A stretch of 64,000 nucleotides of DNA from Paractinoplanes atraurantiacus (lineage in GTDB: Bacteria > Actinomycetota > Actinomycetes > Mycobacteriales > Micromonosporaceae), in NCBI RefSeq assembly GCF_900215205.1, contig NZ_OBDY01000003.1, forward strand, positions 1-64,000. Reading direction: 5' to 3'. Position numbers and translations under genes: made by a program. Under the pieces are notes generated by a model that made no database searches, was not told the origin of the DNA, and was given only the letters and a program-made list of their open reading frames with translations. This document shows, in pieces, positions 8,339 through 32,730 of the stretch. The first letter of the stretch is position 1. Every line of letters begins with the position of its first letter.

Positions 8339-8422
8339 GCCCGGGTGGTGGAATGGCAGACACGGCCGCCTTAAAAGCGGCTGCCTCGCGCAGGCGTGCG
8401 GGTTCGAGACCCGCCCCGGGCA
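8339..8422 (+). tRNA. tRNA-Leu (anticodon UAA), bldA-type
   Basis: An 84-nt class II tRNA. The acceptor stem GCCCGGG (8339-8345) pairs with CCCGGGC (8415-8421), discriminator A at 8422. The anticodon stem GCCGC/GCGGC flanks a seven-base loop CTTAAAA, giving anticodon UAA. There is a long variable arm (TGCCTCGCGCAGGCG region), and the T arm is GCGGG-TTCGAGA-CCCGC. No CCA is encoded. It reads UUA, the rarest leucine codon in high-GC actinomycetes. In Streptomyces the corresponding gene, bldA, controls development by limiting TTA-containing genes. Whether it is the only UUA-reading tRNA of this genome cannot be seen here. Confidence 0.95.
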
Positions 8423-30575: not shown

Positions 30576-31486
30576 CGCTCGACCGTAGCCGGGCGCCTCG
30601 CCGGCACGGGGACGCGCATGAGGTCTTCCGCGATCACGATTTCGCCGGCGAACTCGGCCGCGGCCTCGTCGAGGAAACGTCGCGGGTCGGCGTAGCGCTG
30701 CGAGAAATGAGTCAACAGCAGTTTGCGTACGCCCGACTCGCGCGCCACCGAGGCTGCCTGAGCCGCCGTCAGATGGCCGACCATGGCCGCCATCTCCGCG
30801 TCCTCGGTCAGGAACGTCGACTCGATGACCAGCAGGTCGACGCCCTCGGCCAGCGCGTAGACCGCGTCGGTGAGTCCGGTGTCCATGATGAAGGCGAAGC
30901 TCTGGCCCGGCCGTTCGGCGCTGACCTGCTCCAGCGTCACGTCGCCGGCCCGGCCGTCGCGTTGCAGGGCGCCCACCGCGGGGCCGGAGATGCCGTGCTC
31001 GGCCAGCCGCTCGGGAATCATGCGCCGCGCCGATGGTTCGTCGAGTCGATACCCGTACGTCGGAAGGGAATGCCAGAGCGGCAGAGCCGTGAGGCGCCCG
31101 GCCGAGGTCTCCGCCGAGAAGCTCGCGCCCTCGATCGGCGAAGCCACGATCTCGGCGTTGTCCCAGTAGCTGGTGGCGTGCCGCAGGCGGTCGTAGAACT
31201 CCTGGCCGGCGCCGGGGTAGTGGACCGTGACCGGATGTTGCACCTTGTCGAGCGAGATGCGCTGGAGGATGCCGGGCAGGCCCAGGCTGTGATCGCCGTG
31301 GAAGTGGGTGATGCAGATGCGCTTGATCGGGGTGACCGCGAGGCCGGCGAACAGCATCTGGCGCTGGGTGCCCTCGCCCGGGTCGAAGAGGATCACCTCG
31401 TCGTCCCAGCGCAGCAGGTAGCCGTTGTGGTTCCGATGCCGTGTCGGCACTTGGCTGGCCGACCCCAGGACCACGAGCTCGCGCAT
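30572..31486 (-). CDS. rnz: ribonuclease Z (tRNA 3'-endonuclease, metallo-beta-lactamase fold)
   Basis: Matures tRNA 3' ends that lack an encoded CCA, such as the tRNA-Leu in this window. The 304-residue protein has the metal-binding HxHxDH motif in [20 protein letters not shown], an [15 protein letters not shown] segment near the start, the [20 protein letters not shown] region, and the C-terminal [14 protein letters not shown] with the histidine that defines RNase Z. The ATG at 31486 is preceded by GGGGG; a longer start (31531) would run into the structured upstream region. About 280 bases with strong secondary structure precede it. Confidence 0.9.
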
Positions 31487-31507
31487 GATCAAGCCCCCGA
31501 GATGAAG

Positions 31508-31761
31508 CGACCCCTGGGGACTTCCACGCACGAATGCGTGGTCCGGTCGGACAAGGCCGGATCCCCAGGGGTCGGGTGGCTGTCTGATATTCGCCGCACC
31601 GCTGCCACACGGTCTCGACGTACTACAAACGAAGCTGTCGAGGACAGCGGCTAGCGGACAGCCACCTCACGAGTCCCGTTGCTATACAACTTCGGACCAC
31701 CTCCCTTCACGTGTACGGCTACGTTAACCAGCCGAATGCCCCTTCGCCAATGCTTTTTGAA
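31508..31761 (-). ncRNA. candidate structured RNA between ppk2 and rnz
   Basis: Reading the minus strand from the ppk2 stop to rnz, at least four stems follow each other. H1 is at 31717-31733 (GGCT/AGCC). H2 is at 31673-31697 (GTCC..GTTG/CAAC..GGAC). H3 has GGTGGCTGTC (minus) at 31657-31666 pairing with 31575-31584, with inner stems 31645-31650/31599-31604 and 31637-31642/31614-31619. H4 is a three-way junction: a perfect 13-bp closing stem (31508-31520/31562-31574) encloses two adjoining hairpins, 31524-31541 and 31542-31561. The first of these has a TTCG tetraloop on the minus strand. The density of stems and the tetraloop orientation suggest a functional RNA read toward rnz. I know no named family that fits. 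Confidence 0.45.
31651..31761 (-). other. possible short peptide frame within the structured region
   Basis: The frame of ppk2 reopens after two consecutive stops (TAG TGA) and encodes 36 residues, KKHWRRGIRLVNVAVHVKGG followed by [15 protein letters not shown] and a stop. There is no ATG, GTG or TTG near the beginning; the first GTG is internal (about 31705-31707). The last codons form one arm of stem H3, so apparent peptide conservation could reflect RNA pairing. I have an unverified impression that similar short peptides are annotated in other actinomycetes. Confidence 0.3.
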
Positions 31762-31764
31762 TCA

Positions 31765-32730
31765 CTACAGACGAGGGAATACGCGCGGGGACATTTCGGT
31801 CCCTTCGACCGCGAGCGAGGCCGGCCCGACGATCAGCGGGTCGGGGGTGCCGACGACCTCGACGTCCTTGTTCTCGTAGTCGAAGCGGTTGAGCACGTGG
31901 CGCATCGCCTCGAGCCGGGCCCGCTTCTTGTCGTTGCTCTTCACCACGGTCCACGGCGCGTCGGCGGTGTCGGTGTAGAAGAACATCGCCTCCTTGGCCT
32001 CCGTGTAGTCGCCCCACTTGTCCAGGGAGGCCAGATCGTTGGGGGAGAGCTTCCACTGGCGGACGGGATCGACCTGGCGGATCGCGAAGCGCGTGCGCTG
32101 CTCCCGCTGGGTGACCGAGAACCAGAACTTGACCAGGTGGATGCCGGAGCGGACGAACATCCGCTCCAGCTCCGGGGTCTGCCGCATGAACTCGAGATAT
32201 TCGGCCCGGGTGCAGAAACCCATGACCCGCTCCACGCCGGCCCGGTTGTACCAGGACCGGTCGAACAGCACGATCTCGCCGGCCGACGGCAGGTGCTTGA
32301 TGTAGCGCTGGTAGTACCACTGGTTGCTCTCGCGCTCGTTCGGCTTCTCGAGAGCGACCACGGAGGCGCCGCGCGGGTTCAGATGCTCCATGAAGCGCTT
32401 GATGGTGCCGCCCTTGCCGGCGGCGTCCCGCCCCTCGAAGAGGATCACGAGACGCTCGCCGCTGGACTTGCACCAGTTCTGCAGCTTCAGCAGCTCGATC
32501 TGCAGCAGCCGCTTCTGATGGTCGTACTCCTGCCGGGACATCCGCTCGTCGTACGGATAGTCCTCGCGCCAGGTGTCGACCGGACTGCCGTCGGCATTGA
32601 GCAGCACCGGGTCGTCGTCATCGTCGTCGGCCACCCGGTAGCCGTCGAGCTCGGCGATCGAACCGTCGTACGGCTCGCTGACCTGCTCCTGGATCTCTTC
32701 GAACTCCGCCTCCGCCTGCATGACCGACAT
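31765..32730 (-). CDS. ppk2: polyphosphate kinase 2 (PPK2 family)
   Basis: Transfers phosphate between polyphosphate and nucleoside diphosphates or monophosphates. The 321-residue protein has an acidic N-terminal extension (VADDDDDDPVLLNADG), Walker A in LVILFEGRDAAGKGGTIKRF (about 104-123), the PPK2 lid KPNERESNQWYYQRYIKHLP, Walker B VLFDRSWYNRAGVERVMGFC, and the KSNDKKRARLEAMRHVLNRF segment. It lies 22 bases downstream of the CYTH-CHAD gene in the same orientation, which supports a polyphosphate operon. The ATG at 32730 is chosen over 32721; neither has a strong binding site. Confidence 0.92.
   Translation of the reverse strand: MSVMQAEAEFEEIQEQVSEPYDGSIAELDGYRVADDDDDDPVLLNADGSPVDTWREDYPYDERMSRQEYDHQKRLLQIELLKLQNWCKSSGERLVILFEGRDAAGKGGTIKRFMEHLNPRGASVVALEKPNERESNQWYYQRYIKHLPSAGEIVLFDRSWYNRAGVERVMGFCTRAEYLEFMRQTPELERMFVRSGIHLVKFWFSVTQREQRTRFAIRQVDPVRQWKLSPNDLASLDKWGDYTEAKEAMFFYTDTADAPWTVVKSNDKKRARLEAMRHVLNRFDYENKDVEVVGTPDPLIVGPASLAVEGTEMSPRVFPRL

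Follow-up and report, generated by a model that had tools for sequence, protein, structure and literature searches.

A 16S rRNA-complementary element and a conserved micro-ORF in the actinobacterial small RNA Ms_IGR-5 (RF02471), a candidate ribosome-responsive RNA

RESULTS

A member of a known small-RNA family between PPK2 and metallo-beta-lactamase genes

In the window, a 64,000-nucleotide stretch of Paractinoplanes atraurantiacus DNA, a structured RNA is encoded on the minus strand, flanked on one side by a PPK2 gene and on the other by a metallo-beta-lactamase gene that we read as rnz. The four nearest genes match Pfam models for PPK2, CHAD/CYTH, metallo-beta-lactamase, and GNAT proteins, and the ATG of rnz (31486 to 31484) lies 15 nt past the RNA. 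An Rfam scan of the window placed a match to RF02471 (Ms_IGR-5) at 31502 to 31714 on the minus strand, with a score of 102.3 bits against a gathering cutoff of 45 and spanning the full model (positions 1 to 184). The structured stretch is a member of this known actinobacterial small-RNA family, and the RNA gene is about 213 nt long, its predicted ends being those of the family match. A preliminary description of the locus, made from the sequence alone, had delimited the structure at 31508 to 31764, proposed a covariance search with Rfam comparison, and stated that no known family matches; the search gave RF02471 above its gathering score, so that the last statement was wrong. The span needed correction at both ends: its first ~50 nt (31715 to 31764) fall outside the family match, and the match runs 6 nt beyond its 3' boundary. 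A tRNA gene at 8339 to 8422 on the plus strand was the only other Rfam match in the window.

With the Rfam model, matches were found in 53 of 61 genomes of a family-level sample, in 131 of 197 genomes of a class-level sample, and in 57 of 296 genomes of a phylum sample, 26 of these 57 being above the cutoff; none of 14 control genomes matched. A second model (R1), which we built from 50 sequences of the 5' domain, matched in 113 of the 296 phylum genomes, and the 183 sampled genomes without a match under its strict filters indicate that the RNA is absent or was missed in many. A pattern scan of named genomes recovered at least 120 stretches; among the 80 matches listed, 79 titles read as Actinomycetota. 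The sole Acidobacteriota title among them (L196) belongs to a metagenome-assembled genome (MAG) and could reflect a mislabeled bin or a transfer. Among the matches listed, each matched genome had one copy except G366 (class scan), G514 (family scan), and G224 (R1 phylum scan), which had two each. The RNA is spread through the phylum, nearly always as a single copy, with many absences or misses. The loci counted here and below are related and are treated without a tree, so locus counts do not equal independent events.

The copy number bears on one proposal of the preliminary description, that a mobile element, with its guide-like RNA, ends in this region; the proposal drew on an impression of abutting hairpins. 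There was one match to the RNA in its own genome and one in nearly every genome carrying it, no direct repeats were found in 31300 to 32000, viral contigs scanned with one conserved pattern gave no match, and the nearest four genes are those listed above. We regard a mobile-element origin as having a negligible chance of being correct.

Covarying helices, a pseudoknot, and alternative folds

The stretch 31508 to 31764 (minus strand) folds at −117.4 kcal/mol (z −3.85) and the family RNA (31502 to 31714) at −108.6 kcal/mol (z −4.67), and in each case 0 of 200 shuffled sequences folded as well. These values and the compensatory changes among relatives bear out the earlier reading of a multistem structure on the minus strand. 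For the comparison, 127 of 141 loci were aligned (14 were left out because of contig-end or short-stretch problems), and 78 of these were selected as less than 78% alike. Three (L097, L105, and L140) were removed by hand before alignment A1, which has 75 sequences; A2 comprises 50 of those 75. Over the 75 sequences, a seven-helix structure had 86.2% of its cells paired, compared with 75.0% in shuffled controls and 36.2 to 40.3% in slid controls; these pairing counts are biased toward the structure, which was derived from one member's MFE fold together with covariation in an overlapping sequence set, and the slid control shares this bias for cells paired. Its covariation score was 0.314 versus 0.140 in the control, and the compensatory base changes across species that the preliminary description had named as support for an RNA are present.

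Comparison of the relatives supports several individual helices. P1 joins CACG (31710 to 31713) with CGUG (31668 to 31671), with 97.6% of cells paired and both-side changes in three of four pairs. In P3 (31657 to 31666 with 31575 to 31584), 87.7% of cells are paired and 5 of 10 pairs show both-side changes, with T58-A133 (z 19.1) and T56-A135 as covarying pairs; the 20-nt arms that contain it (31575 to 31594 and 31647 to 31666) are 80% complementary in the window. P5 is a perfect 13-bp inverted repeat (31562 to 31574 with 31508 to 31520), confirming the closing stem of the three-way junction described before; all 13 of its pairs have both-side changes among relatives, and 83.4% of cells are paired. 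P4 is separated from the P3 3' strand by a conserved and largely unpaired RAAUNCCAG-type motif (GAAUAUCAG in the window, 31584 to 31592).

A pseudoknot connects GGAC(N) in the P1 loop with (N)GUCC in the loop of a hairpin inside P5; in the window, its strands are GGACU (31672 to 31676) and UGUCC (31549 to 31553). By covariation, 89.5% of its cells are paired and four of five pairs show both-side changes. The outermost pair (z 13.3) appears as GC, UA, UG, CG, AU, and GU; 21 of 74 sequences leave it unpaired, and the window has U-U at this place. The GGUCC/GGGAC stem (P2), which we take to be H2 of the preliminary description, competes with this pseudoknot. We did not prefer P2 as the main fold, because the pseudoknot is richer in pair types: P2 forms in 319 of 375 cells with 5 further pair types, compared with 333 of 372 cells and 12 further pair types. 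Likewise, the first helix of the Rfam consensus, which pairs the element described below with the P3 5' strand, was not preferred because it has 6 further pair types versus 16 for P3. This helix forms in 410 of 450 cells, a higher share than that of P3 (658 of 750), and may well exist as an alternative fold. The competition between P2 and the pseudoknot and the frequency of the Rfam helix make alternative folds of the RNA likely.

Two smaller features of the preliminary description stand in part. The CGGCT/AGCCG hairpin, which we take to be its H1, can be seen, but it is upstream sequence outside the RNA. The UUCG tetraloop is present; it gives no direction, since its subhairpin varies greatly in length and letters among relatives, and the orientation of the RNA comes from the family match.

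An element complementary to the 3' tail of 16S rRNA

Directly after the P1 5' strand lies a 15-nt element (31694 to 31708; consensus GAAAGGAGGUGGUCC, window version GAAGGGAGGUGGUCC) that is complementary, with G-U pairs, to the 16S rRNA 3' tail GGAUCACCUCCUUUC. On the 16S sequence, the complementarity reaches from near the 3' end to the base of what we take to be helix 45. Across 141 loci, 2,113 of 2,115 cells can pair with the tail; the eight positions opposite C or A were unchanged in 1,128 of 1,128 cells, and the remaining variation, bar 2 cells, was A/G opposite U or C/T opposite G. The 57 loci found only with R1 are a partly independent test, since R1 itself contains the element; 852 of their 855 cells pair, and two of the three misses occur in L326, a weak and doubtful match that we judged to be misanchored and that was kept in this count and removed before the 291-locus open reading frame (ORF) counts below. 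By this comparison, the complementarity is a kept property of the family. The predicted duplex with the 16S tail has a free energy of −28.8 kcal/mol in the window and −29.2 kcal/mol on average, compared with −17.5 kcal/mol for a strong ordinary Shine-Dalgarno (SD) sequence. In the single-sequence fold of the window, the element is partly paired (mean unpaired probability of 0.355), and opening it costs 9.2 kcal/mol.

In 20 16S loci from 12 genomes, the tail reads GGCTGGATCACCTCCTTTCT; the search pattern fixed most tail letters, so this count shows the presence of the tail and not its invariance. No match to the 16S end was obtained in 8 of the 20 genomes searched, the window's own (a draft) included, nor with a looser pattern. 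The end and trailer read CTCCTTTCTAAGGAG in 18 of the 20 loci (L262 to L281), a sequence in which a 6-bp hairpin could sequester the anti-SD before the 16S precursor is processed; in that case, binding of the element might be restricted to matured 30S subunits. By eye, the P3 3' strand (GACAGCCACC, 31575 to 31584) could pair over about 6 bp with GGUGGU of the element, and if a ribosome opens P3, the released strand could close the element to the next ribosome.

Such extensive complementarity raises the possibility that the RNA is a 30S trap or hibernation RNA, in which a 15-bp pairing masks the anti-SD and any micro-ORF is secondary; variants of this explanation would have it lower SD-led initiation in favor of leaderless mRNAs or shield the 16S tail from nucleases. 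The predicted duplex of about −29 kcal/mol, lower than the value for a strong ordinary SD, and the reach of the element along the tail to the presumed base of helix 45 would suit such a role, as would the leaderless mRNAs that make up 22.2% in Streptomyces avermitilis according to an excerpt of PMC8780764. Masking leaves unexplained the in-frame start and stop described in the next section (278 of 287 loci) and the kept stop codon, and we consider it an unlikely account of the family as a whole. Our own first reading, a purely noncoding RNA that pairs with 16S rRNA, was given up after the frame test of the micro-ORF.

A micro-ORF with a kept frame and a variable peptide

The preliminary description had noted that the 5' half can be read as a 36-residue frame. 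That frame is real, running from 31761 to a UAG at 31653 to 31651, and the UUG at 31689 opens its final 12 codons, which constitute a micro-ORF (31651 to 31689; UUG UAU AGC AAC GGG ACU CGU GAG GUG GCU GUC CGC UAG) that recurs among relatives. It contains GAGGUG (31663 to 31668), a second SD-like motif that ends 9 nt before the stop codon and could hold a terminating ribosome there.

After duplicates were collapsed (261 to 238 distinct 5' regions and 317 to 291 distinct loci), 228 of the 238 regions had the first NTG after the element in the same frame as GAG and the stop site, over spacers of every length between 25 and 34 nt, with 18 or 23 nt as rare cases. The frame of the first NTG opens an ORF of 10 to 17 codons in 278 of 291 loci, versus 32 and 8 for the other two frames. 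When 4 of the 291 loci lacking one feature were excluded, the distance from NTG to stop was divisible by three in 278 of 287 loci, across all three spacer classes modulo 3: 36 nt in 172 loci, 42 nt in 50, 39 nt in 30, 45 nt in 16, 30 nt in 8, and 18 nt in 2, with 9 out of frame. The codon at the stop site was UAG in 199 of the 238 regions, UGA in 23, UAA in 13, and another in 3; UGG, expected 21 times if letters were independent, was observed 0 times. Among the 290 loci with a first NTG, it was UUG in 154, AUG in 80, CUG in 29, and GUG in 27. Thirteen of the 291 loci were without a simple ORF, several of which could start at AUU or AUC.

The R1-only loci lay outside the set on which the test was built. 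GAGGUG was present in 53 of these 57; 45 of the 53 had the NTG in the GAG frame, and 45 had a stop five codons after GAG. The other eight were out of the GAG frame, and by reading, most of them have an ORF in another frame; L284 has none. Overall, the first-NTG ORF stops 15 nt after the start of GAGGU in 269 of 291 loci and 14 nt after it in 9. The latter nine would encode a different peptide, so that it is the ORF that is kept and not the peptide; L284 and L296, of the same 14-nt type, have no simple ORF. In a group with a shortened 5' domain (L284, L293, L311, L320, L337, L338, L102, and L105), the GGAC strand is visible only in L105, and all members but L284 have the micro-ORF in another frame relative to GAGGU.

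These data also bear on whether the RNA is simply the misannotated mRNA of a tiny bioactive peptide. A conserved start-stop frame is what such an mRNA would show, and E-V-(A/T/V) occurs near the C terminus in most loci. However, codons 2 to 5 vary freely, the nine loci just mentioned end in another frame with a changed peptide, and GAGGUG is unchanged in 261 of 261 loci, with no synonymous change (it is also kept in 53 of the 57 R1-only loci). Moreover, a peptide of 10 to 15 residues would remain within the ribosome exit tunnel until release. Such an mRNA is, in our judgment, very unlikely; the comparison instead suggests that start, stop, and frame are kept while the peptide varies.

The P1 3' strand and one strand of the pseudoknot lie within the micro-ORF, as does, in its last codons, the P3 5' strand, so that covarying helices and a kept ORF share the same bases. 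This overlap suggests that both the folded and the translated states matter.

The same observations speak to an ordinary base-pairing small RNA whose SD-like element arises fortuitously from structure or composition. Rfam types RF02471 as an sRNA gene, and the name Ms_IGR-5 reportedly derives from an E. coli Hfq pull-down study in Mycobacterium smegmatis, as would fit an RNA of that kind. Changes in the element track 16S pairing almost without exception, though, and the frame is conserved, which makes coincidence highly improbable.

Promoter-like hexamers, the 3' end, and variable gene neighborhoods

Upstream of the RNA, we read a −35-like hexamer TTGGCG (31745 to 31750) and, 18 nt past it, a −10-like hexamer TAACGT (31721 to 31726) that ends 6 nt before the first base of the RNA; a strict E. 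coli-type promoter scan found none in the window. Among relatives, 229 of 289 distinct loci have a TAnnnT at the best of nine positions, which in 209 of them is 6 or 7 nt upstream of the RNA, and 154 of the 229 with a full TAnnnT carry TTG at a spacing of 16 to 18 nt; these are comparison counts without a shuffled control. The only terminator-like site in 31380 to 31900, a hairpin GCTGTCCTCGACAGC followed by TTCGTTTG (31634 to 31648), comes directly after the micro-ORF stop, inside the RNA and not at its end, and its T-run is not seen in the relative L010. A T-rich tract near the RNA 3' end was present in only 60 of 140 loci.

Gene neighborhoods vary. In the 247 loci with a gene call, the downstream gene was convergent in 131 and on the same strand in 116; gene calling was crude here, with some predicted genes overlapping the RNA. 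By our reading of the translations, from which the neighbor names are taken, a Mycobacterium locus has pabC-like and nitrobindin-like neighbors, a Micromonospora locus has rnz, a Nocardioides locus has an ABC transporter upstream, and an Acidimicrobiia MAG has a cysK-like gene. Because the neighbors vary between lineages, a trans-acting role, or an action on the ribosome itself, is probable.

Two further roles proposed in the preliminary description fare differently against these data. A 3' sRNA derived from ppk2 is not borne out, given the promoter-like hexamers directly upstream in most relatives and the mixed neighbors, though the strict scan was negative in the window. A regulatory leader of rnz fits those relatives that have a same-strand homolog of the window's rnz downstream (21 of 261 loci) and fails as a general role, since there is no common downstream gene and more than half of the called ones (131 of 247) are convergent. 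More broadly, a cis-acting leader or attenuator of whatever gene lies downstream would accord with the 15-nt distance to the rnz ATG here, and attenuators typically have a translated leader overlapping helices. The convergent genes and lineage-specific neighbors weigh against it, and we think such a role decidedly improbable for the family.

DISCUSSION

Annotations of actinobacterial genomes include RF02471. Excerpts of the relevant papers report RNA-seq support for it in Streptomyces lividans (PMC8079986), an sRNA transcription unit in S. avermitilis (PMC8780764), and an M. smegmatis cold stress transcript, ncMSMEG15794c, that overlaps IGR-5 (PMC10454040). In Mycobacterium abscessus and M. 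smegmatis, MS_IGR-5 homologs were described as "displaying significant ribosomal reads" (PMC4974804, excerpt); the same section then raises the question of whether ribosome-protected stretches of this sort are coding. An excerpt of PMC4109619 describes an E. coli Hfq pull-down in M. smegmatis, and Ms_IGR-5 is not described in it. As far as these excerpts extend, RF02471 is already known as an actinobacterial small RNA and is functionally unexplained: those of PMC8079986, PMC8780764, PMC10454040, and PMC4974804 offer no function for it and name neither a 16S-complementary element nor a micro-ORF. Our search of the literature on 16S-pairing sRNAs found nothing on RF02471 beyond PMC8079986, and one on the M. 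tuberculosis neighborhood of the RNA found nothing useful. The element and the micro-ORF are likely, though not certainly, new in print. The mixed neighbors, together with the transcription unit in S. avermitilis and the RNA-seq support in S. lividans in the excerpts cited, favor a free-standing RNA.

Our analysis differs from the Rfam model in two respects. Rfam describes an sRNA gene in which the consensus pairs the element with the P3 5' strand, whereas covariation here supports P1, P3, and the pseudoknot, and the RNA carries a conserved micro-ORF. The label sRNA implies a noncoding RNA, although the Rfam model sets no such criterion; the start-stop frame kept in 278 of 291 loci would favor translation, but the peptide is not conserved.

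We postulate that Ms_IGR-5 is a free-standing RNA gene that captures the 30S subunit and is refolded by its own translation, a reading to which we assign a probability of roughly 0.55. A promoter directly upstream would make the ~213-nt RNA, and the 5' element, held in the loop closed by P1, would pair with the single-stranded 16S tail and capture a 30S subunit. The captured ribosome would then translate the micro-ORF of 10 to 15 codons, mostly from UUG, with the identity of the peptide being irrelevant. Translation would melt P1, the pseudoknot, and P3, whose strands lie in the micro-ORF, and would leave the ribosome at the stop codon, 9 nt past the second SD-like motif. In this way the RNA would be closed when free and open when loaded with a ribosome, and by switching between the two forms it would report free 30S subunits or initiation capacity in trans. 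We infer ribosome binding, translation of the micro-ORF, and the fold switch from the comparative patterns in the element, the reading frame, and the helices.

Several known systems share parts of this arrangement. In tnaC, the ermC leader, and the whiB7 upstream ORF (uORF), a short ORF likewise overlaps alternative helices and translation can refold the RNA; unlike such leader-peptide attenuators and uORF sensors, Ms_IGR-5 has no constant downstream gene, its peptide varies, and its SD complementarity of 15 nt is longer than usual. The dual-function RNAs SgrS/SgrT, RNAIII/hld, and SR1 are also free-standing regulatory RNAs with an ORF, but they encode conserved functional proteins, whereas here only start, stop, and frame are kept. 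tmRNA (RF00023), which gave no match in the window at the gathering threshold, resembles Ms_IGR-5 in being structured, with a short ORF, pseudoknots, and ribosome engagement (the last of these presumptive in our case); it differs in that the ORF of Ms_IGR-5 comes after an SD-like element and a start codon. Finally, like Ms1 and other 6S-like RNAs, Ms_IGR-5 would be a phylum sRNA tied to a core gene expression machine; Ms1 binds the RNA polymerase core (PMC4191392, excerpt), whereas the sequence evidence here points to the ribosome.

More tentatively, and with the odds against it, we speculate that the family is a novel type of ribosome sensor, phylum-wide and acting in trans, that combines a hybrid with the whole 16S tail, a micro-ORF kept only in its start, stop, and frame, a switch between two folds, and an SD-like hold at the stop. 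Should Ms_IGR-5 prove to engage ribosomes and be gated by translation, the phylum of Streptomyces and the mycobacteria would possess an ancient regulator of translation made of RNA, the published ribosome-profiling reads on it would be partly explained, and the 16S tail would be the target of a dedicated trans-acting RNA.
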